In this document: positions 23,910 to 32,702 of the stretch, piece by piece
How positions within the stretch are numbered: position 1 is the stretch's first letter
Layout of the letters: each line of letters opens with the position of its first letter
Source of the DNA: Acidisoma silvae
GTDB lineage: Bacteria; Pseudomonadota; Alphaproteobacteria; Acetobacterales; Acetobacteraceae
Length of the DNA stretch: 64,000 bases
Assembly (NCBI RefSeq): GCF_020618775.1
Contig: NZ_JAESVB010000010.1
Coordinates: forward strand, 1 to 64,000
Direction of reading: 5' to 3'
Notes under the pieces: model-generated
Told to the model about the DNA's origin: nothing
Database searches by the model: none
The model's input: the letters and a program-made list of their open reading frames with translations, nothing else
Position numbers and translations under genes: made by a program

Positions 23910-24923
23910 TTAGCCTTGGGTCAGCTTATCCAGCACCTCATTGATCGCCGCCATAAGCTGTTCACGATCGGCAGTCGCATTGCGCGGAACGCTGATAACA
24001 ATATTGCTGCCCCTCTGCGGCCGCGTACCTCGCGCAAGCAAAGCACCACTGGGCGACCTTACAGCGAATTCGACCGCCCTCGCCGTTACCCGCGCGGCAT
24101 CCTTACGCCGCGTTGCCTGCTGCAAGCGCTTCACCACATCGGGCGCCGCGATCGATGGCTGCTTTACTTGACTGCGCTCACTCTGCTCTTCCGCGATCAC
24201 CTGAGCCTCGGCGATAACAGCAGCCTGCGATAGCGGGTGACGCAACAGAGGCGCCAAGGTGGCGCCATGGCTAATCTTGATGGCATGCAGGCTGCCAAAA
24301 GCGGCAATCACAGGCGCCGGAAATCCTGCAAGATCAAGATAGCGGCTCAACCAGCTTTGGCTGACAGCCAAGCGTTCCGCCATGCGTGCCTGATTGCCGC
24401 CATAGTAGCGCGTCAGCGCGCCTGCGTAATCTCTTGCCCGTTCGACATCCGACAGATCCTGTCGACTGCGGTTTTCCAGATCGGCAATACGGAAGGCTTC
24501 TTCATCGCTTAGTTCTCGCGGCTCGACGAGGAACTTAAAACCGGGCGAGCCATTGAGGCGGAGCCAGCTTGCCGTCCAATGCCGCCTTGCCCCACAGATG
24601 ATCTCGAACTGGTAGTCCGTATCCCCTAAAACGCGGCGAACGATGGCCGGAACTTCCTGGCGACCCTGGGCGCGAAAACTCTCTATCAGATCCGAACAGC
24701 TTTCTTCACTCAGCGCGCCATAGTCCCGATTATGGAACTCCCAAACCCGGCAAAGTGCCGGGTCCACCAGTTCATGCTCCCGTGTCATCGTTTGGCCGGA
24801 AGCCATTTCCGCCAGCCGATTGCTGCGGCTTTGCAAAACCCCGGTGCGGGGCGGCAGTTTGCCGGTCTGCGGTTGAGTTCCACTTGCCAGGCCTGCCGCG
24901 AAACCCTTGTTTCCTAAAGCCAT
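23910..24923 (-). CDS. parB: ParB-family plasmid partition protein
   Basis: The 337-residue protein starts at ATG 24923, chosen over a TTG 18 bases upstream because a GGA lies at suitable spacing. It has the ParB N-terminal region with IICGARRHWTASWL (the canonical box is GERR; here Ala replaces Glu) and then RIADLENRSRQDLSDVERARDYAGAL. A central HTH (NQARMAERLAVSQSWLSRYLDLA, about 185-207) and a C-terminal dimerisation region follow. ParB binds parS sites and acts with ParA to position plasmid copies. It is third in the repA-parA-parB order. I found no obvious parS. Confidence 0.9.
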   Translation of the reverse strand: MALGNKGFAAGLASGTQPQTGKLPPRTGVLQSRSNRLAEMASGQTMTREHELVDPALCRVWEFHNRDYGALSEESCSDLIESFRAQGRQEVPAIVRRVLGDTDYQFEIICGARRHWTASWLRLNGSPGFKFLVEPRELSDEEAFRIADLENRSRQDLSDVERARDYAGALTRYYGGNQARMAERLAVSQSWLSRYLDLAGFPAPVIAAFGSLHAIKISHGATLAPLLRHPLSQAAVIAEAQVIAEEQSERSQVKQPSIAAPDVVKRLQQATRRKDAARVTARAVEFAVRSPSGALLARGTRPQRGSNIVISVPRNATADREQLMAAINEVLDKLTQG

Positions 24924-24975
24924 AAAATCATTCCAAATCAATAAGTTGGACTAATCTTGCGAATCTGCAAGGCGA

Positions 24976-26169
24976 TCAAATCTTACCTTCAGCCCGCAGC
25001 TTCTCTGCCTGGCTTGGCCAAGTTGTCCGGATTTGCATCTCAATCTCCGCGTTGACGCCATTCAAATAGGCGAGACCACGATTATAGGTTTCACGCGATG
25101 TCACGGGTGCCGCCAGTTCATAGATGGTCATCAGCCGCGCTGAGGCATTATCGATCTCGGCGCTATCACGCATCACCGTCCGCAACATTTTTTCGCCAAA
25201 CAAATTGCGCATCAGTCCCAGCAGCTCTCGCTGCATGGACTTTCCTTCGTCGGCGCGGGTTGCCACAAAGCGTATCCACGAAAAATCGACCGGAAAATGC
25301 CGCTCCTCCAGAATTTGGAGCGTCTCATAAAGCATGGCGAGGAAGGTCGTGGTCGAGGCGAAATCGACGACGGTCGGCGGCATCGGCACCAGCAGCGCAT
25401 TGGCCGCCCGCATGACAGAAAGCGAAATCGTGCCCAGTGCCGGCGGCGGGTCCAGCACGATGACGTCGAAATGGTCGGCTATGGAGACCAGACCCTCGGC
25501 CAGACGATTGAGCAATCTCGGCTCAGATCGGGAAATACGGGCTGCAAGCTCGTATTCGGCGGAATAAAGCTTCAGATTGGCGGGAATAAGATAGAGGTTG
25601 TCCCAATGCGTTTCCCGCACCGCATAAGCGAGACTGCTCATCTCCATATTGCGGAAAAATGGATAAAGCGTCTCGTCCTCATGAATATCAAGATCAGGAA
25701 CATAGCCGAACAGGGCCGTGGATGACCCCTGGCTGTCGCAATCCACCAGACAGACCCGATAGCCCTGAATCGCGAGATATTGTGCCAGATGGGCAGAAAC
25801 CGTGGACTTCCCTACCCCGCCCTTAAAATTCTGAACGGCGATGACCGAAACCGGATCCTCGGCGCTCCGCCAAGGCCTTGTCCCAAAGACCTCGCGCATC
25901 TGGTTGACCTCAGCCAAAGTATAGCCGACACGACGACCGGACGTGGTTCGCTCGACAGCCGGAATACGCCCGTCCTTCTCTGCCTCGCGAATCGCGGCCG
26001 TGGTCCGTCCGACTAGCTCCGCCACGCGCGTAATGGGAAATCGCGGTGACTGGCGGGCACCACTCTCATGCAATGCCTGGTCGCGCAGGCCGCCTAACAC
26101 AGTCATGCATTTATTGTAGATTTCCCCGACGGAGCGGAGCGTCTGGGATTCCATGCGAGTATCGCTCAT
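24976..26169 (-). CDS. parA: ParA-family plasmid partition ATPase with N-terminal HTH
   Basis: The 397-residue protein has a MerR-like HTH near residues 45-95 (ITRVAELVGRTTAAIREAEKDGRIP, then GRRVGYTLAEVNQMR). The deviant Walker A (VQNFKGGVGKSTVSAHLAQYL, about 113-133) and Walker B-type region (FDVIVLDPPPALGTISLSVM) follow. An HTH-bearing ParA of this length is typical of type Ia systems, in which ParA also represses its own operon. Its ATG overlaps the repA stop codon... in this case parA begins four bases before repA ends, so the two are translationally coupled. It drives segregation together with ParB. Confidence 0.93.
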   Translation of the reverse strand: MSDTRMESQTLRSVGEIYNKCMTVLGGLRDQALHESGARQSPRFPITRVAELVGRTTAAIREAEKDGRIPAVERTTSGRRVGYTLAEVNQMREVFGTRPWRSAEDPVSVIAVQNFKGGVGKSTVSAHLAQYLAIQGYRVCLVDCDSQGSSTALFGYVPDLDIHEDETLYPFFRNMEMSSLAYAVRETHWDNLYLIPANLKLYSAEYELAARISRSEPRLLNRLAEGLVSIADHFDVIVLDPPPALGTISLSVMRAANALLVPMPPTVVDFASTTTFLAMLYETLQILEERHFPVDFSWIRFVATRADEGKSMQRELLGLMRNLFGEKMLRTVMRDSAEIDNASARLMTIYELAAPVTSRETYNRGLAYLNGVNAEIEMQIRTTWPSQAEKLRAEGKI

Positions 26170-27455
26170 GGCGTGGTCTTGCTCACTGGGTTTTTCGTCA
26201 CGTCGACCCGAACCTGGGAAATCCCGACCGCACGGCCAGCCCTGTCCAGATGCAGCTGAAATTCGGTCTTGATATGGTGGCTATGGAAGCGCGAACCCAC
26301 CAGCAGGAACCATTCACTGTCCCTTTGTTCCAGCGTCGCACGCTTGAACCAAGTGTTGAACTGAGCATCGCCCAGATTCTCTTTCAGCGTCCGAAAGAAT
26401 GCTTGAGGCAGATCCTGCGACAGCGGCGCATCGACCGTACCCTTATCATCGGCTTCTACCAGGCGCAGATCCGCGCCTGGCACCAGTTTTTGCTGCAAAG
26501 GCGCCGGTGATCCGTAAAGGCGGATGACGCTGGTATCGAACTCCGCCTTGGCCTCCGGGTAGACGGCAGAGACATGGCGTTCCCAGGCGTCGCGTATGGT
26601 CTGGCGGAATTTGCGGATGTTTTTTCCGTCATTGCCAAAATGGACGGCCAGTTGATCCCAGCTTAATGTCGCAGGCCGCTTTTGACCAATGCGTGGCAGC
26701 CGGTAGGCCAGCCAGGTGTAGAGATCCAAGGCGGTCGCCGAATCGCGCAACTGGCGGATCGCCACCTCGTTCAACGGCACGGCATGGTCTTTCAGGTGAT
26801 GAAAGAACCCGTCAGTCATCAGGATTTCGCGCTGAAAACCAGATTTAGGACCGTCCTGGCCACGATATTCATTGGTCAGCTTGATTTCGCGAATACCGAA
26901 TTCATGCTCGCCGCTTTTGTCGACATTGTCCCAGCGGATCATCCATTCGCAGGACAGCAGCCGGTCCATCTGGTCCCGAATGAGCGTGGCAGAGCCACGC
27001 GGCCCATAGCTGACCGTTTTAAAGCCCATCCGCCGCATCCAGTCGCTGAAATTCCGGCCCAGATGGACATGGCGGGAATTGGCTTTGACGGCTTCCGTCA
27101 TGATATGAATGAGGATCAGCCTGGGCAGAGATCCAAAGGGTATGCCAAGGCTCTGGAACTGTTGTTGGCCGTTGACCAGGTCCAACCGCGGCTTAGGATT
27201 GATGACGAGCGTATATTGGCCGTCCTGGCGCATGATGGGGGCGTATTCGTCCTTTGGACGCCGCACCGGCAAGGACATGGCGCATAGGGCGGAGTGGAGA
27301 AAGCCGGGGCTGGGTGCCTCATCCTGGATCGCGAGAACGCGCTCGAACAGGTCAGGCTGGCCAAGAGAGAGCGCCAGTTGATTGGCTGCATCAGGCCCGC
27401 GCTGTACCAGTTCCAGGTGGACTTGCTGCCCAAGCGGATGACGGGGGGCGGACAT
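26166..27455 (-). CDS. repA: Plasmid replication initiator RepA with a C-terminal DnaA domain I-like segment
   Basis: The 429-residue protein begins behind GGAG at ideal spacing. Its first two thirds resemble plasmid RepA initiators of Alphaproteobacteria: SLPVRRPKDEYAPIMRQDGQYTL, LGIPFGSLPRLILIHIMTEAV, FSDWMRRMGFKTVSYGPRGSATLIRDQMDRLL, and later SATALDLYTWLAYRLPRI. These regions are expected to bind the iterons upstream. Residues about 345-405 (FFRTLKENLGDAQFNTWFKRA, then FHSHHIKTEFQLHL) look like the N-terminal domain of DnaA, which recruits helicase. It heads the repA-parA-parB operon, and a dyad and iterons lie upstream. Confidence 0.88.
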   Translation of the reverse strand: MSAPRHPLGQQVHLELVQRGPDAANQLALSLGQPDLFERVLAIQDEAPSPGFLHSALCAMSLPVRRPKDEYAPIMRQDGQYTLVINPKPRLDLVNGQQQFQSLGIPFGSLPRLILIHIMTEAVKANSRHVHLGRNFSDWMRRMGFKTVSYGPRGSATLIRDQMDRLLSCEWMIRWDNVDKSGEHEFGIREIKLTNEYRGQDGPKSGFQREILMTDGFFHHLKDHAVPLNEVAIRQLRDSATALDLYTWLAYRLPRIGQKRPATLSWDQLAVHFGNDGKNIRKFRQTIRDAWERHVSAVYPEAKAEFDTSVIRLYGSPAPLQQKLVPGADLRLVEADDKGTVDAPLSQDLPQAFFRTLKENLGDAQFNTWFKRATLEQRDSEWFLLVGSRFHSHHIKTEFQLHLDRAGRAVGISQVRVDVTKNPVSKTTP

Positions 27456-27949: not shown

Positions 27950-28396
27950 CTATAGGCCGCTATCGGGCTGAGAAACACAGAATTCCGAGCCGACGGCCAA
28001 TCCCGCCCGGCCAGCGGAAGCTCTCAGCTTGTGCTGATCGAGCCGCAGGTAACGGGCAAGAAGGAAGACATAGGCGGCCAGAAATTGCGCGCCATGGCCG
28101 TCACTTTCCCCTTCGACGGTGGACGTGATGCTATGGGCCAATTCATGCAGCAGGCACCAGGACGGCACGCGGGGCGCCAGTTCGATTGTCAGTCTGTCAG
28201 CGCGGCCAATCAGGGTCTTGGCCTGGGCCGGCAGAGCCGCGATTTTTGGGGGATAGCGGAGGCCGATATCAGCCCAGATGGCATCGACCATGCCCTGGGC
28301 CTGATCGCGCATAATGACGGTTCCATCATGTGGCGCGACAGCCTGCTGCTCCCACGTATAGAGCCGCCCGCGTTGATGATCGCGACCGGTTTTCAT
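27950..28396 (-). CDS. Small zinc-metallopeptidase-like protein (HELAH motif)
   Basis: The 148-residue protein contains HELAHSITS (about residues 85-93), a zincin HExxH signature. It is followed after a short gap by DGHGAQFLAAYVFLLARYL, whose His could be the third zinc ligand, as in SprT/WSS1-like minimal proteases. Preceding sequence (AKTLIGRADRLTIELAPRVPSWCLL) would form the strand next to the active site. No signal peptide is visible. Its start overlaps the end of the DUF2786-type gene by four bases, so both are one operon running toward oriV. I infer a cytoplasmic protease or protease-fold protein linked to plasmid maintenance; no specific function is known to me. Confidence 0.6.
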   Translation of the reverse strand: MKTGRDHQRGRLYTWEQQAVAPHDGTVIMRDQAQGMVDAIWADIGLRYPPKIAALPAQAKTLIGRADRLTIELAPRVPSWCLLHELAHSITSTVEGESDGHGAQFLAAYVFLLARYLRLDQHKLRASAGRAGLAVGSEFCVSQPDSGL

Positions 28397-29142
28397 TTGA
28401 GACAGGGGACGCCCTGATCCCCCACCGGGCGGCTGAGGTTGATACGATCACCGGCTAGTCCGCCAGCCATATAGGCCTGTCGGTCGATAGCGATGACGGA
28501 GGCGCTGCGGGATCGGAGCTTGATCTTCGTCTCGCGAAAGGCGTCCTGCACAACGGTCTGCTTGACCAGAACCAGCGCTGTGCCCCTGCTGGTGCCAGCG
28601 CGCAACGCGCTTTCTCGTGACTGATGCAGTTCCTCCAGCCGATCCTCCACACGCTTTGCCAGCCCGTGCTGAAAGCTGCGCGTTGCCAATCTGAGCTGGG
28701 TGGAGCGCAGTCGTGGATTGAGCTGTTTGAACGCGGCGGTTTCGCTTCTGATGGCTTGCTCGATGATTTTGTAAAGATAGACAGCCATCTGCACATCGGC
28801 CTCGAAACCGAAATAGACGTAGCACTTCGTGGAGGGCGCCTCTGATTCGTCTGATGCCGGCCCGTGATCGAGCCAGACGATGCAGTGGCAAAACCGCCCG
28901 ATTGCGGGAACACAGCCGTCAATCGCGCCACGGCGCTTGCCGGCCATAGGCATTTTGGCCTGAATGCAGATCTGCTCCCGAACCTGAACCTCACTCATCG
29001 TAAGCATGTAGCGATCCAGCAGCTTTCCCACCATTTCAGCGGCGGCAAAGGCTTCAGCATCCGTGCAGCCATTCTGCACAGTCTTTTCCGTCAATGCCCG
29101 AATGCGGGCTTTGGCGCGGTCGATTTCAGAAATTTGGCTCAT
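28393..29142 (-). CDS. DUF2786-type plasmid protein of unknown function
   Basis: From ATG 29142 (MSQISEIDRAKARIRAL) the protein has 249 residues; a longer frame exists but lacks a better ribosome site. The N-terminal 45 residues (AKARIRALTEKTV, then DAEAFAAAEMVGKLLDRYMLTMSEV) match the DUF2786 helical pattern. The middle (CYVYFGFEADVQMAVYLYKIIEQAI) and the Arg-rich helix SFQHGLAKRVEDRLEELHQSRE resemble the domain that often follows DUF2786 in phage and plasmid proteins. It is probably nucleic-acid associated, but no activity can be assigned. It is translationally coupled to the HELAH protein. Confidence 0.6.
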   Translation of the reverse strand: MSQISEIDRAKARIRALTEKTVQNGCTDAEAFAAAEMVGKLLDRYMLTMSEVQVREQICIQAKMPMAGKRRGAIDGCVPAIGRFCHCIVWLDHGPASDESEAPSTKCYVYFGFEADVQMAVYLYKIIEQAIRSETAAFKQLNPRLRSTQLRLATRSFQHGLAKRVEDRLEELHQSRESALRAGTSRGTALVLVKQTVVQDAFRETKIKLRSRSASVIAIDRQAYMAGGLAGDRINLSRPVGDQGVPCLK

Positions 29143-29328
29143 GGCCTTCAAGCTAAACAGCTGGCAGCCAAAGGCAAAGCCTTGCGGGCGTCGCTCAGAA
29201 AATGTCATGGGGGAGGGTGGCAATTCGCAGCGTTTGGGCGCTAAAACAGAGGGCAGCCAATTGCGGTATCGCGCTGCTTATCTCATCCAAGTCCAGTTTT
29301 TTAACGGTTAGGGTGCTCAACCCACGTA

Positions 29329-29371
29329 TTACCGTGCCTAACTCCACGAGAGAGGGCTCTTGCCTTGATTA
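29329..29371 (+). repeat. Composite motif, right copy (inverted partner at 23726-23765)
   Basis: TTACCGTGCCTAA (29329-29341), an 18-base spacer, then TTGCCTTGATT (from 29360), which itself begins a TGCCTT-GATT-AAGGCA dyad. The element ends about 45 bases before the integrase start, so it could contain that gene's operator or promoter. The left copy points toward the glycosyltransferase gene. Confidence 0.55.
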
Positions 29372-29414: not shown

Positions 29415-30350
29415 TTGGAGTCGCAGGACAGGCCTGATGTCCCGGCCGAAAGGCCGCTCACCACGGTGACGCGTAAAATTTATACCGATGATTGGGGTAC
29501 GTTTTGCGCCTGGTGTGCAGCCGGGTCTGTTTCCCACCTGCCCGCCGCACCGGAGACAATTCTGGCCTATTTGACGGCACGACAGGCGACGCTTGGCCTT
29601 AGCGGCTTGAGGGTGGCTCTTGCCGCCATCCGGTCTCATCATCGGCAGGCCGGGTTGCCCCTGGCATCCGCCGATCCCGCCATCTCCCGCCTGCTGAGCG
29701 ACATGGCCCAGGCGGGGCGTAGCCCTGTCAGGCCTGCTGCCGTGCTGACCGCTGCCGCGATTGAACGCCTCGTCAGCAGTTGCGATCCTGACCCTGGGGG
29801 GCGGGCTGCTTTCCTCAATCTGCGCGACCGCGCCTTGCTGCTGCTGTGCTTTGCCGGTGGTCTAAGGCGCTCCGAACTGGTGGCCCTGGACCGGGAGGAT
29901 ATCGATGTCACCCGCGAAGGATTGACGCTTCGCGTCGGCAGTTCCAGACCAGACAAGCCGGTGGCAAGTTTGCATGTTTCCCGTGGAACAGATGCCAAAA
30001 CCTGTGCCGTTCAGGCGATGGAGACTTGGCTGCGCCGGGCGCGGATCGATTACGGGCCGGTCTTTCCACGTCTGACGGCGGCCGGGACGATCGAGGCTCG
30101 ATTGACCGGTAATGGCGTCTGGAAAATCCTCCGCCGCCGCGCGGCTTTGGTCGGGCTGGAGGCGCCGGCGGGCGAGCGCCTTTCGCCGCACGGCATGCGT
30201 GCCGGGTTCATCGTGAAGGCCTATGCCACGGGTGCGTCGGATGGGGACGTGATGGCCCATGCCCGACAGAGAGATCGCGGGGCGACGCGCCGTTATAACG
30301 GGCGCGTCGCAAGCTTGGTCATCGACCCCGACCTCGTGCCGGATATCTGA
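29415..30350 (+). CDS. Tyrosine recombinase/integrase
   Basis: A TTG start is chosen because it follows a very strong AAGGGGAGG ribosome site. The 311-residue protein has an N-terminal SAM-like core-binding domain (KIYTDDWGTFCAWC, then ILAYLTARQATLGLSGLRVALAAIRSHH). The catalytic domain carries GGLRRSEL (first Arg, about residue 152), SPHGMRAGF (His-x-x-Arg, about 258) and MAHARQRDRGATRRYNGR with the nucleophile Tyr near 293. It resembles plasmid recombinases that resolve multimers. It heads a unit with a hypothetical gene and an ScpA homologue. An iteron-like sequence lies inside its 5' end (29484-29500). Confidence 0.88.
   Translation: MESQDRPDVPAERPLTTVTRKIYTDDWGTFCAWCAAGSVSHLPAAPETILAYLTARQATLGLSGLRVALAAIRSHHRQAGLPLASADPAISRLLSDMAQAGRSPVRPAAVLTAAAIERLVSSCDPDPGGRAAFLNLRDRALLLLCFAGGLRRSELVALDREDIDVTREGLTLRVGSSRPDKPVASLHVSRGTDAKTCAVQAMETWLRRARIDYGPVFPRLTAAGTIEARLTGNGVWKILRRRAALVGLEAPAGERLSPHGMRAGFIVKAYATGASDGDVMAHARQRDRGATRRYNGRVASLVIDPDLVPDI
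29484..29500 (-). repeat. Iteron-like sequence inside the integrase gene
   Basis: The plus strand reads ACCGATGATTGGGGTAC, the exact reverse complement of GTACC-N4-TCATCGGT. It lies in codons 24-29 of the integrase frame. A full match to both conserved halves is unlikely by chance, so RepA may bind here. Confidence 0.5.
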
Positions 30351-30358
30351 CCTTGCGC

Positions 30359-30979
30359 ATGCCGTCGCGGCGGAGCCTGTCTGGGCCGGATGAAACATTT
30401 GATCCGATGGCATTGCCACAGGCTGACTGGCTGCGCCACGGTCTGACCGTGTCCGGGCCGAGCCACGATGTCCTGTCGTTTCAACGCGCGGCCCGGGGGG
30501 CTGGTGCCATCCCCTGGCAATTGCCGGATCTGTCCTTGACCGAGGAGGATCAGCTCCATGCGCTGCTGAACCCTCCCGACGGATCGCGCGGGCTAAGCTT
30601 GGCGGCGGCGCAAATCCTTGCAAGCCAATTGCGGAGTGCTGTGGAAAATCATGCGGATCGGGTGATTGAAGCCGCTCGGCAGGGCCGGGGCTGTCCGCTC
30701 GATTTGCACGCCTTGTTGCCGATCCCCGCGCTGATTCTGCAGCGTGGACCGGATCATCCCGGCAGTCGCGCCTGGCTGCGCCAGCATTGGGGCATCGTCC
30801 AATCTCTGCGGCAGGTGCGCCTGTTGACCGGCATGGAGGATCACCATCGGCGGCGCGCCGGCAAAATCACCTATGAGTTTTGGTCGGCGGACTGGACGCC
30901 CTGGGCCGCTATCCTGGGGTTCCGCGCCAAATGGCCCAGTCTCATTTTCGATTGCCGACCCGACTATAGCCATGGATGA
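30359..30979 (+). CDS. Hypothetical protein between integrase and ScpA homologue
   Basis: The 206-residue protein starts at ATG 30359 (a TTG six bases upstream is also possible), nine bases after the integrase stop. It overlaps the ScpA-like start by eight bases, so it is translationally coupled to it. I recognise no domain. The sequence has an alpha-helical middle (LSLAAAQILASQLRSAVENHADRVIEAA) and a Trp-rich end (EFWSADWTPWAAILGFRAKW). No signal peptide or membrane segment is seen. Given its position it could be a partner of the kleisin, in place of ScpB, but sequence gives no direct support. Confidence 0.6.
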   Translation: MPSRRSLSGPDETFDPMALPQADWLRHGLTVSGPSHDVLSFQRAARGAGAIPWQLPDLSLTEEDQLHALLNPPDGSRGLSLAAAQILASQLRSAVENHADRVIEAARQGRGCPLDLHALLPIPALILQRGPDHPGSRAWLRQHWGIVQSLRQVRLLTGMEDHHRRRAGKITYEFWSADWTPWAAILGFRAKWPSLIFDCRPDYSHG

Positions 30980-31733
30980 CAGGTGGAAGGGACCGGAGCG
31001 TCTGCCCGCCACGCCGATCGTCCATCTCGATGGGTTCGACGGGCCAATGGATCTGCTGCTCGACCTCGCCGAGCGGCAACGCATCGATTTCGGCCGCGTC
31101 TCAATTCTGGCCCTTGCTGACCAGTTCACTGCGGCGATGGATCATTTTGCGGATCAGGTCAGTCTGGAGCGACGGGCGGATTGGCTGGTTCTGGCGACGC
31201 GTCTTGTCCATCTGCGCTCGCGGCTGTTGTTTCCCGCGTCGGCCCAAGCGGCGGCCGAGGCCGAGGCCGAAGCGGCACGCGAAATCCAGCGCCTCGATGA
31301 GCGGATTGCCATGCGGGCGGCTGGCGCCTGGCTGGGCGGCAGGCCGCAATTGGGGGTAGAGACTTTCGTCAGACCTCTGAGCGAGCGTCCGCGTGAAACG
31401 GGCTATGTCGGTCTCATGGAAGCTTGTCTCGCCGTATTGCTTGGGCCGGACGAGAGGTTGAAGCCCATACCTGTCTACACAAGGCTTATCCCCGATCTTT
31501 GGCGCGTCAGTGATGCCTTGGCGCATATACCCAGCATACTTGCGCGCCATCCGGAGGGGGGGAGGCTGATCGCCTTTTTACCGCCTGTGGCGGCGGACGA
31601 TCCTAACCGCATCGAGAAGATGCGGACGGCCATGGCTTCCACGCTCCTGGCCGGTCTGGAACTGGCAAAAAACGGGTCGCTTCGTATCGAGCAATCTCAG
31701 CCGCTAGAAGAATGCTGGTTGCGCGCGTCGTGA
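30972..31733 (+). CDS. ScpA-family kleisin encoded on the plasmid
   Basis: Starting at ATG 30972 gives 253 residues, the usual ScpA length. The N-terminal kleisin signature is clear: LDGFDGPMDLLLDLAERQRIDFGRVSILALADQF, followed by the helix WLVLATRLVHLRSRLLFP that contacts the SMC neck. The C-terminal end (STLLAGLELAKNGSLRIEQSQPL) matches the winged-helix end that binds the SMC head. In chromosomes ScpA works with ScpB and SMC to compact and separate DNA. Neither partner gene is in the window, so the protein may recruit host SMC to the plasmid or form a different complex. Confidence 0.82.
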   Translation: MDDRWKGPERLPATPIVHLDGFDGPMDLLLDLAERQRIDFGRVSILALADQFTAAMDHFADQVSLERRADWLVLATRLVHLRSRLLFPASAQAAAEAEAEAAREIQRLDERIAMRAAGAWLGGRPQLGVETFVRPLSERPRETGYVGLMEACLAVLLGPDERLKPIPVYTRLIPDLWRVSDALAHIPSILARHPEGGRLIAFLPPVAADDPNRIEKMRTAMASTLLAGLELAKNGSLRIEQSQPLEECWLRAS

Positions 31734-31815: not shown

Positions 31816-32184
31816 ATGAACGATATGACCAGTTTCATTCAAGATACGGCGACCGCTGACGGATTGATTGCGGCCGATCGCCTGAGTTCCATGCTGCATA
31901 TCACGCGGGCGGAATTGGCCACCACGCTTGGGCTGTCGCGCGACGCCATTGCCAAAACCGCGCGGGTTGCGGCGCCGTCCACCCAGTCGCGTCTGCGCGA
32001 CATTGTCGAAATCCTCAATCGCGTCAGGCCCTGGGCGGGGTCGCCGCAACAGGCCTTTGCCTGGTACCGGTCGCAGCCCTTGCCTTCCTTCGGGGACCAG
32101 ACGGCGGAGGCCCTTGTCAAGGAAGGGCGGGCTGAGGCGGTGAAACGCTATTTGGATAGGGTCGCGGTCGGCGGTTACGCGTGA
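31816..32184 (+). CDS. Xre/MbcA/ParS-type antitoxin
   Basis: From ATG 31816 the protein has 122 residues. It has an N-terminal HTH (DRLSSMLHITRAELATTLGLSRDAIAKTARV) and the C-terminal DUF2384-like toxin-binding part (LRDIVEILNRVRPWAGSPQQAFAWYRSQPLPSFGDQTAEALVKEGRAEAVKRYLDRV). The motif W-R/Y-S-x-P-L-P-x-F-x-x-x-T-x is characteristic of antitoxins paired with RES toxins. Its stop overlaps the toxin start. It should neutralise the RES protein by covering its active site and repress the operon. Confidence 0.88.
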   Translation: MNDMTSFIQDTATADGLIAADRLSSMLHITRAELATTLGLSRDAIAKTARVAAPSTQSRLRDIVEILNRVRPWAGSPQQAFAWYRSQPLPSFGDQTAEALVKEGRAEAVKRYLDRVAVGGYA

Positions 32185-32702
32185 GGTTTCACGGCTTCGT
32201 CTATCGCGCGCATCATCCGCGTTGGGCTTTTTCTCCATTGTCGGGTGAGGGCGCTGCCCGCTACGGCGGACGCTTCAATCCGCCCGGCATGCCGGCACTT
32301 TATACGGCACGTCGGATGCAGACCGCCTGGCTGGAAGCGCAGCAGGCTTTTCCCTTCAAGGCGCAGCCCATGACGCTTTGCGCCTATGAGGTCGATTGCG
32401 TGGACGTCGCCGATTTAACGAATCCGATTACGCTCGGCGAGCTTGGGATTGCCCAGGCCGCGCTTGCCTGTCCCTGGGAAGACCTTGCATCCCGCCGGCA
32501 GCCGGTGGCCAGCTGGGATCTTGCGCGCCGTCTGCAGGCTGAGGGTTTTGCCGCGATCCTGGTGCCGAGCTTCGCCGCAGGTGCGACGTCCGAGGACGCC
32601 AATCTCGTCTTTTGGCAATGGGCGGCAGATCTGCCGCATCGTGTCACGGTGATCGACGATGATAACCGGTTGCCCCGCGATGATCGTTCGTGGCGGCTTT
32701 AG
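32181..32702 (+). CDS. RES-domain toxin
   Basis: The 173-residue protein begins at GTG 32181, four bases inside the antitoxin gene. It carries the RES-domain landmarks YRAHHPRWAFSPLSGEGAARYGGRFNPPGMPALYTA (early Arg and the RYGGRFN box), a conserved Glu in WLEAQQAF and a C-terminal DANLVFWQW. Characterised RES toxins such as MbcT degrade NAD+ by phosphorolysis and others modify phosphoribosyl pyrophosphate synthetase. With the preceding gene it forms a type II toxin-antitoxin pair that stabilises the plasmid. Confidence 0.9.
   Translation: MRFHGFVYRAHHPRWAFSPLSGEGAARYGGRFNPPGMPALYTARRMQTAWLEAQQAFPFKAQPMTLCAYEVDCVDVADLTNPITLGELGIAQAALACPWEDLASRRQPVASWDLARRLQAEGFAAILVPSFAAGATSEDANLVFWQWAADLPHRVTVIDDDNRLPRDDRSWRL

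Follow-up and report, generated by a model that had tools for sequence, protein, structure and literature searches.

We analyzed a stretch of 64,000 nucleotides from the alphaproteobacterium Acidisoma silvae (positions 1 to 64,000 of contig NZ_JAESVB010000010.1, forward strand; referred to as the window here) and focused on a three-gene operon at positions 29415-31733, which encodes a Xer-like tyrosine recombinase, a middle protein with a predicted YubB-like fold, and an ScpA-type kleisin. The contig of the window (C10) has 134,973 bases and carries genes of the RepA_C, ParA, and ParB types at 23910-27455, on the strand opposite to the trio, which mark it as a probable plasmid. The features of the locus are the following.

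29311..29339, no strand: candidate dif-like recombinase site, with a well-supported right half (TTACCGTGCCT, 29329-29339) and a diverged left half

29415..30350, + strand: Xer-like tyrosine recombinase, 311 amino acids, TTG start, match to PF00589 (E 1.9e-11), R/H/R/H/Y residues present

30359..30979, + strand: adaptor-like protein, 206 amino acids, ATG start, predicted ferredoxin-type fold with a helical insertion, YubB/Api92-like

30972..31733, + strand: plasmid-dedicated ScpA-type kleisin, 253 amino acids, ATG start, match to PF02616 (E 7e-8, above the curated cut-off)

Within 30972..31733: kleisin layout of N-terminal SMC-contact domain, central helix, and C-terminal winged helix, based on PF02616, on sequence and fold matches to the PDB, and on the ScpA tree

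All three genes lie on one strand. The recombinase stop codon and the start of the middle gene are 8 bases apart, and the start of the kleisin gene overlaps the stop of the middle gene by 8 bases (ATGGATGA), which bears out a preliminary description of this DNA as three coupled genes, the second of which overlaps the third. The middle protein is the best marker of the module, because no general family covers it. Of the 397 Acetobacteraceae genomes in the sample, 98 have a match to it, distributed over 33 of 102 genera, and it is also present in 50 records (45 to 441 kb) of a plasmid collection, at 60 places and in seven genera, all of them Acetobacteraceae. Among 100 loci examined with their flanks, which are roughly the best-scoring matches of a longer Acetobacteraceae list and hence under-sample the weaker ones, recombinase, middle gene, and kleisin follow each other in the same order and on the same strand in 88 (84 scored by script, plus L104, L114, L128, and L136, complete by gene listing). 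The preliminary description would have taken rare joint conservation of the trio as a refutation of its proposal, but the trio is usually kept together. The 12 incomplete loci comprise 2 with the middle gene alone (L078 and L086, which show no recombinase or kleisin match within about 3 kb), 3 without an upstream recombinase (1 of which ends at a contig end), and 7 without a downstream kleisin on the same strand (1 of which has the kleisin inverted). In a named set of loci, which overlaps the 100 and includes some cut by contig ends, the trio was found in 62 of 80. In each of the 87 loci scored for this, the kleisin frame is open across the stop of the middle gene; 41 of them have a start codon at position -8 and 12 have one at -4. 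Relatives within the genus of the window are located on contig 8 of Acidisoma cellulosilyticum (G217:C8) and on a plasmid of Acidisoma sp. PAMC 29798 (G179:C3), where both names were assigned indirectly.

At the sequence level, ScpA N-domains of known structure (3w6j, E 8.2e-10; 3zgx chain C) match the N-terminal part of the window kleisin. A structure predicted from 60 rows (predicted local distance difference test [pLDDT] of 83.4, predicted template modeling score [pTM] of 0.40) shows two confident parts with a poor linker between them. The fold search covered the C-terminal part, whose predicted winged helix resembles C-domains of ScpA from structures with Smc heads (4i99_C, E 2.2e-3, probability 1.00 with Foldseek; 5h66_C, Z 9.8, root mean square deviation [rmsd] 1.8, 66 residues aligned); winged helices are common folds. 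Both ends that contact SMC, which the preliminary description had already seen in this protein, therefore appear to be retained, one by sequence and the other by predicted fold, and the kleisin may bind SMC. With 59.8 bits, against a cut-off of 234 for the best model, it does not reach the NCBIfam ScpA equivalog level, so we regard it as a divergent ScpA and not as the chromosomal equivalog.

To place these proteins, we built a tree from 41 trio kleisins representing the genera and 30 chromosomal ScpA proteins from genomes that carry the middle gene, rooted on three outgroup ScpA proteins and leaving out L071 (very long branch) and L108 (33% filled). All trio kleisins form one clade apart from the chromosomal ScpA proteins (support 100/99; 200 of 200 bootstrap trees), and a quick tree that includes L071 and L108, from which 11 of the 30 chromosomal loci are absent, returns the same clade. 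In the tree as drawn, the clade is nested among the chromosomal ScpA proteins of the Acetobacteraceae, which places a single old duplication at the origin of the plasmid-dedicated kleisin. A chromosomal-type ScpA (E 2.5e-74 or lower) was matched in 50 of 51 genomes with the middle gene. The kleisins are under purifying selection, with a median omega of 0.09-0.24 in the five groups tested, and the identity between their N-domains is 0.54, compared with 0.84 among chromosomal ScpA proteins. The N-terminal part of the window kleisin is also matched by phrog_30628 (E 3.9e-13), a phage family with unassigned function in PHROGs, so judging from sequence phages may carry kleisins too.

For the middle protein, an AlphaFold2 model from 79 rows (pLDDT 84.4, pTM 0.75) predicts a ferredoxin-type fold in the order strand, helix, helical insertion, strand, strand, helix, strand. 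The only PDB match of this model below 0.001 is 2ijr, an Api92 protein of family DUF1281 (E 8.1e-5, probability 1.00 with Foldseek), and 4 of the 5 viral models below that value are YubB ferredoxin-like domains by name; sequence motifs had already prompted a guess of YubB before the fold search. In a VIA-align comparison with 2ijr, the Z score was 7.7, only slightly higher than the 6 to 6.5 of unrelated ferredoxin folds, with an rmsd of 10.5 over 168 aligned residues, so parts of the fold match, but not as one rigid body. The window protein gave no match in Pfam (scanned up to E 10), PHROGs, NCBIfam, or PADLOC, nor, as a 79-row profile, against PDB sequences, and no DUF1281-type match was found in four relatives. 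Given that sequence models miss it, we call it YubB-like in fold and not a DUF1281 member. The only loose Pfam match among the five middle proteins scanned, a phage-integrase SAM-like N-domain in one of them, fits a fused recombinase remnant: Komagataeibacter has a 445-residue protein, annotated as “transposase,” in which the middle protein forms the C-terminal half and the N-terminal part is what remains of the recombinase. This fusion and the ferredoxin-type fold are consistent with the adaptor role that the preliminary description had proposed for the middle protein, which would then bridge its two neighbors.

A phylum-wide sample returned matches to the middle protein in 3 of 398 genomes, namely, that of the window and two weak ones, and a search of IMG/VR viral contigs with the window protein alone found no relative. 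One of the two weak matches, a protein of 193 amino acids from outside the Acetobacteraceae (L237:1363-1941, - strand), shares motifs with the middle protein and reaches 96% over 78 columns in a profile comparison, making it a probable distant relative; it has two PHROGs matches without assigned function (including phrog_12644, E 7.1e-9) and no Pfam or PDB match, and its 3.2-kb stretch contains no trio. The other, L238, was rejected as a probable chance match, since it falls in a coiled-coil segment within a frame of 483 residues.

The best PDB match of the window recombinase is XerD (1a0p), but it scores only 49.1 bits against the 329.6 bits of the XerD equivalog TIGR02225, so we refer to it as Xer-like and not as XerC or XerD. 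Scored in the alignment as R...HxxR...H...Y, with the lysine outside the score, all five catalytic residues are kept in 60 of 96 co-oriented recombinases, that of the window included. Komagataeibacter/Novacetimonas, Lichenicola, Lichenicoccus, and others have lost them. Of 92 rows in a quickly built middle-protein tree, 61 are intact and 31 degenerate; this label switches 7 times along the tree, and well-supported branches force at least 5 of the changes. At least two of the loci counted as degenerate (L123 and L135) have a fragmented recombinase, which may reflect frameshifts or assembly errors. The preliminary description had not foreseen that recombinases without catalytic residues are kept under selection. 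In Komagataeibacter, the recombinase part is under purifying selection, with a median omega of 0.142 (103 pairs, 15 loci), close to the 0.114 and 0.084 of two groups with intact recombinases; among the other degenerate groups, constraint is weaker in Lichenicola (0.315, 6 pairs), and Lichenicoccus gives 0.166 from a single pair. The kleisin is present in all 30 degenerate loci, versus 51 of 58 intact ones. Within the roughly 3 kb fetched upstream, a second, divergent recombinase was found in 16 of 30 degenerate but only 3 of 58 intact loci (Fisher P = 5e-7, a value that ignores kinship). Catalysis can thus disappear, or be handed to a neighbor, without loss of the protein itself.

A dif site consists of two inverted arms around a center of 6 to 7 bases. 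In Komagataeibacter, aligned flanks reveal a perfectly conserved block upstream of the gene, which contains an inverted repeat of this layout with arms of 12 and a center of 6 bases; 13 of the 15 loci share the repeat exactly, and the remaining two differ by a single base. Palindromes of the type CGRYAA-N6/7-TTRYCG occupy a comparable upstream position in other lineages. The exact form occurs in 42 of 95 upstream regions, with 0.0 expected from shuffles, but never in the two control regions, which are the initial 500 bases of the recombinase (0 of 96) and the stretch 3' of the kleisin (0 of 78). When one mismatch is allowed, the numbers are 49 of 95 (1.6 expected), 1 of 96 (0.4 expected), and 3 of 78 (2.4 expected), respectively. 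Nineteen of the 42 exact sites are near copies (15 from Komagataeibacter/Novacetimonas and 4 from Acidisoma) and others are related too, so the 42 are not independent events. A count of palindromes with 11-base arms, taken alone, gives a weak signal (48 of 80 loci, 28.9 expected). The 17 Komagataeibacter/Novacetimonas genomes have 15 site places in 14 genomes, each of them at a trio, while three genomes have no site.

The arms of the site track the recombinase sequence (rho of 0.52 over 458 pairs of 31 loci, a value reached in 0 of 500 permutations), although shared ancestry contributes to this correlation. G217 has two trios whose recombinases share only 33% identity and whose sites differ, and one host XerCD specificity would not predict this. 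The window itself holds half of a site: the candidate ends 76 bases 5' of the recombinase start and fails the full consensus, its left arm having diverged. The 18-base block at 29325-29342 is nevertheless identical, and in the same place, in A. cellulosilyticum, and it is unique in the genome of the window at up to two mismatches. A second near copy of the half-site (two mismatches) lies at C12:145130-145147 of G217, away from its trio on C8. A repeat finder run on the window flanks found none, and the site emerged only from the comparison of relatives. About half of the relatives thus add a candidate dif-like site to the link with multimer resolution drawn in the preliminary description.

These observations could be taken as plain plasmid dimer resolution, carried out at the dif-like site by the recombinase with an accessory protein, while the kleisin would be no more than a passenger or would have a regulatory role without SMC. 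A site beside the recombinase in about half of the loci, catalytic residues intact in 61 of the 92 tree rows, 7 intact loci without a kleisin, and a kleisin sequence more diverse than that of chromosomal ScpA would all agree with this. We nonetheless regard it as rather unlikely, because the kleisin is kept in 88 of the 100 loci, in overlapping frames, because it evolves under the purifying selection of its own described above, and because the recombinase repeatedly lost catalysis while the kleisin stayed. The presence of a tyrosine recombinase at the head of the operon could also point to a mobile unit, transposable as a trio, that acquired a kleisin. Strains can indeed have multiple plasmid copies (on three plasmids in Acidisoma and on four in Lichenicola, and some plasmids carry two), and those of Acidisoma are very similar across several replicons of one strain. 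Such a unit is hard to reconcile with a single kleisin clade of long shared history, with a site that flanks the trio on just one side (a single site for each trio in Komagataeibacter), and with the 60 places spread over 50 plasmid records, and we consider it very improbable.

In the genome of the window, we found one ScpB match and a second ScpA (42% identity), both on contig C2, and one long SMC frame of 1,159 amino acids on C3. The contig of the window has no ScpB match, and a search with the SMC_N model returned only two matches of 26.8 and 25.1 bits (cut-off 40), as many ATPases give. A kleisin without SMC or ScpB, as stated in the preliminary description, therefore holds for this contig but not in general, since a few relatives have a plasmid ScpB upstream. 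ScpB, recombinase, middle protein, and ScpA stand in a row in Gluconobacter albidus; Acetobacter aceti has the same order with two insertion sequences in between; and 2 of the 100 loci (L071 and L146) also have a plasmid ScpB upstream, so a small part of the family supplies both Scp subunits. On one Gluconobacter plasmid, ScpB occurs without a trio annotated less than 6 kb away. None of the trio-bearing stretches opened, each a part of a plasmid, has an annotated SMC gene.

The chromosomal scpA and scpB genes of the window genome (at 376 kb and 222 kb of C2) lie about 154 kb apart, while they are adjacent in the Azospirillum, Sinorhizobium, and Paracoccus records opened. In the plasmid collection, 747 records match one plasmid ScpB, chromid-borne scpAB included, compared with 88 that match the window ScpA. 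Three rhizobial or roseobacter ScpB stretches (L043, L044, and L045) have no ScpA annotated nearby, and on a Mesorhizobium huakuii plasmid a DUF1403 gene precedes ScpB; such stretches are possibly a parallel plasmid Scp system.

Given that the kleisin derives from the ScpA of its host family and occurs in hosts with their own ScpA, it could conceivably act as a decoy, poisoning or diverting host SMC and thereby letting the plasmid escape SMC action, with the recombinase as a mere neighbor. A decoy would need neither a plasmid ScpB nor a tie to recombinase, adaptor, and site, and we think it improbable; that none of the three trio proteins has a PADLOC match adds little to this. The suggestion of the preliminary description that the plasmid uses host SMC fits with the dedicated kleisin clade, its two contact domains, and a host that has SMC, ScpA, and ScpB of its own.

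Taken together, we favor, with a probability of roughly 50%, the interpretation that the trio is a plasmid-borne, terminus-like segregation module, in which the Xer-like protein and the adaptor put a dedicated kleisin into the SMC complex of the host. According to this model, the recombinase would bind the inverted-repeat site beside its gene, and its catalytic versions would resolve plasmid multimers there. The YubB-fold protein would bridge recombinase and kleisin, and the plasmid kleisin would replace host ScpA in the host SMC complex, together with host ScpB or, in a few relatives, plasmid ScpB. The site on the plasmid would then be where SMC rings are loaded or released, and once multimers are resolved, sister plasmids would be separated, so that dimer resolution is tied to SMC loading or unloading. 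The interpretation given in the preliminary description is in this sense partly supported.

Several observations weigh against the segregation module. The kleisin lacks an adjoining recombinase in 3 of the 100 loci, the middle gene stands alone in 2, and the kleisin is missing in 7 of the 58 loci with an intact recombinase, which shows that parts of the module can separate. When 20 stretches of 20 kb were searched with RepA, ParA, and ParB probes, RepA-type genes were found within 10 kb in only 4 and ParA-type genes in 8, so we do not claim that the trio always lies beside replication genes, and some copies are on chromosome-sized contigs. Exact sites are absent from 53 of the 95 upstream regions, the motif was derived from the same, often related, loci in which it was later counted, and the G086 recombinases have different sites despite being 91% identical, which counts against a tight match of site and protein. 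In 14 of the 30 degenerate loci, no second recombinase lies within the fetched stretch. Finally, the kleisins diverge fast: of the chromosomal ScpA positions conserved to at least 90%, they keep only 27 of 50 for the N-domain, 17 of 31 for the C-domain, 11 of 17 for the middle helix, and 3 of 11 for the linker, where a position counts as kept if the chromosomal residue is present in 70% of the trio kleisins.

A bolder version of the segregation module is possible, though we hold it only tentatively: a site-specific recombinase may have turned into an SMC docking platform, and thereby into a third element of plasmid inheritance beside ParABS and dimer resolution. The recombinase-adaptor pair would mark the dif-like site for SMC loading or release by the plasmid's own kleisin, and where catalysis died, as in the Komagataeibacter fusion protein, the docking role would be the only one left.

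The surroundings of the trio contain further genes. The RepA_C protein at 26166-27455 has a C-terminal stretch that matches the DnaA N-terminal domain (PF11638, 25.4 bits; cut-off 24.6). Upstream, at 27950-29223 and divergent from the trio, lie a DUF7168/DUF2786 protein and a weak SprT-like match, in a position that is kept in A. cellulosilyticum. Directly 3' of the kleisin, at 31816-32702, is an Xre/MbcA/ParS antitoxin and RES toxin pair; the same pair is found 3' of the trio in A. cellulosilyticum (L156), and a RES gene lies near the trio in Komagataeibacter. Elsewhere in the genome of the window, the ends of contigs C41 and C49 (L008 and L007) encode C-terminal fragments of ScpA with 40-43% identity, which are perhaps further trio plasmids split by the assembly.

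Each part of the module is of a known kind, and what seems to be new is the combination of recombinase, adaptor, and kleisin, together with a site. As in SMC-ScpAB, the kleisin is of the ScpA type, with an N-terminal domain and a C-terminal winged helix, but it is plasmid encoded, forms a separate clade, has no SMC or ScpB on its contig, and is tied to a recombinase and a middle protein. With XerCD/dif and SMC unloading by XerD in Bacillus subtilis, the trio shares a Xer-like recombinase, a candidate site with inverted arms around a 6- to 7-base center, and a presumed link to SMC, while it differs in having its own recombinase and site family, retained noncatalytic versions, and an operon with a kleisin. 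YubB/Api92 proteins (DUF1281), with 2ijr as the best PDB match, resemble the middle protein in predicted fold, but the latter has no sequence-model match, and we know of no link of YubB/Api92 to a recombinase or a kleisin. The alphaproteobacterial plasmid ScpB beside DUF1403 in M. huakuii is likewise a piece of Scp machinery on a plasmid, but it is ScpB instead of ScpA, with another neighbor gene. We found no description of the operon in searches of the open-licence PMC literature. Excerpts of two papers describe XerD as removing SMC in B. subtilis (PMC8669397, PMC12322038), excerpts of another propose dif as an SMC unloading site on pSymB and more widely (PMC13342612), and according to a further excerpt, enterobacterial replicons larger than 250 kb all host an active XerCD site (PMC11724359).

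The module bears on how Xer-type recombinases and SMC complexes act on each other, since one operon joins a recombinase, a kleisin, and a predicted linker, often beside a DNA site; its natural noncatalytic versions and fusions make the question testable on plasmids of harmless bacteria. If our interpretation is true, such a plasmid would form a self-contained terminus with a recombinase, site, and kleisin of its own, and it would follow that plasmids can carry kleisins for the SMC of their host, with implications for how large plasmids become stable secondary replicons.

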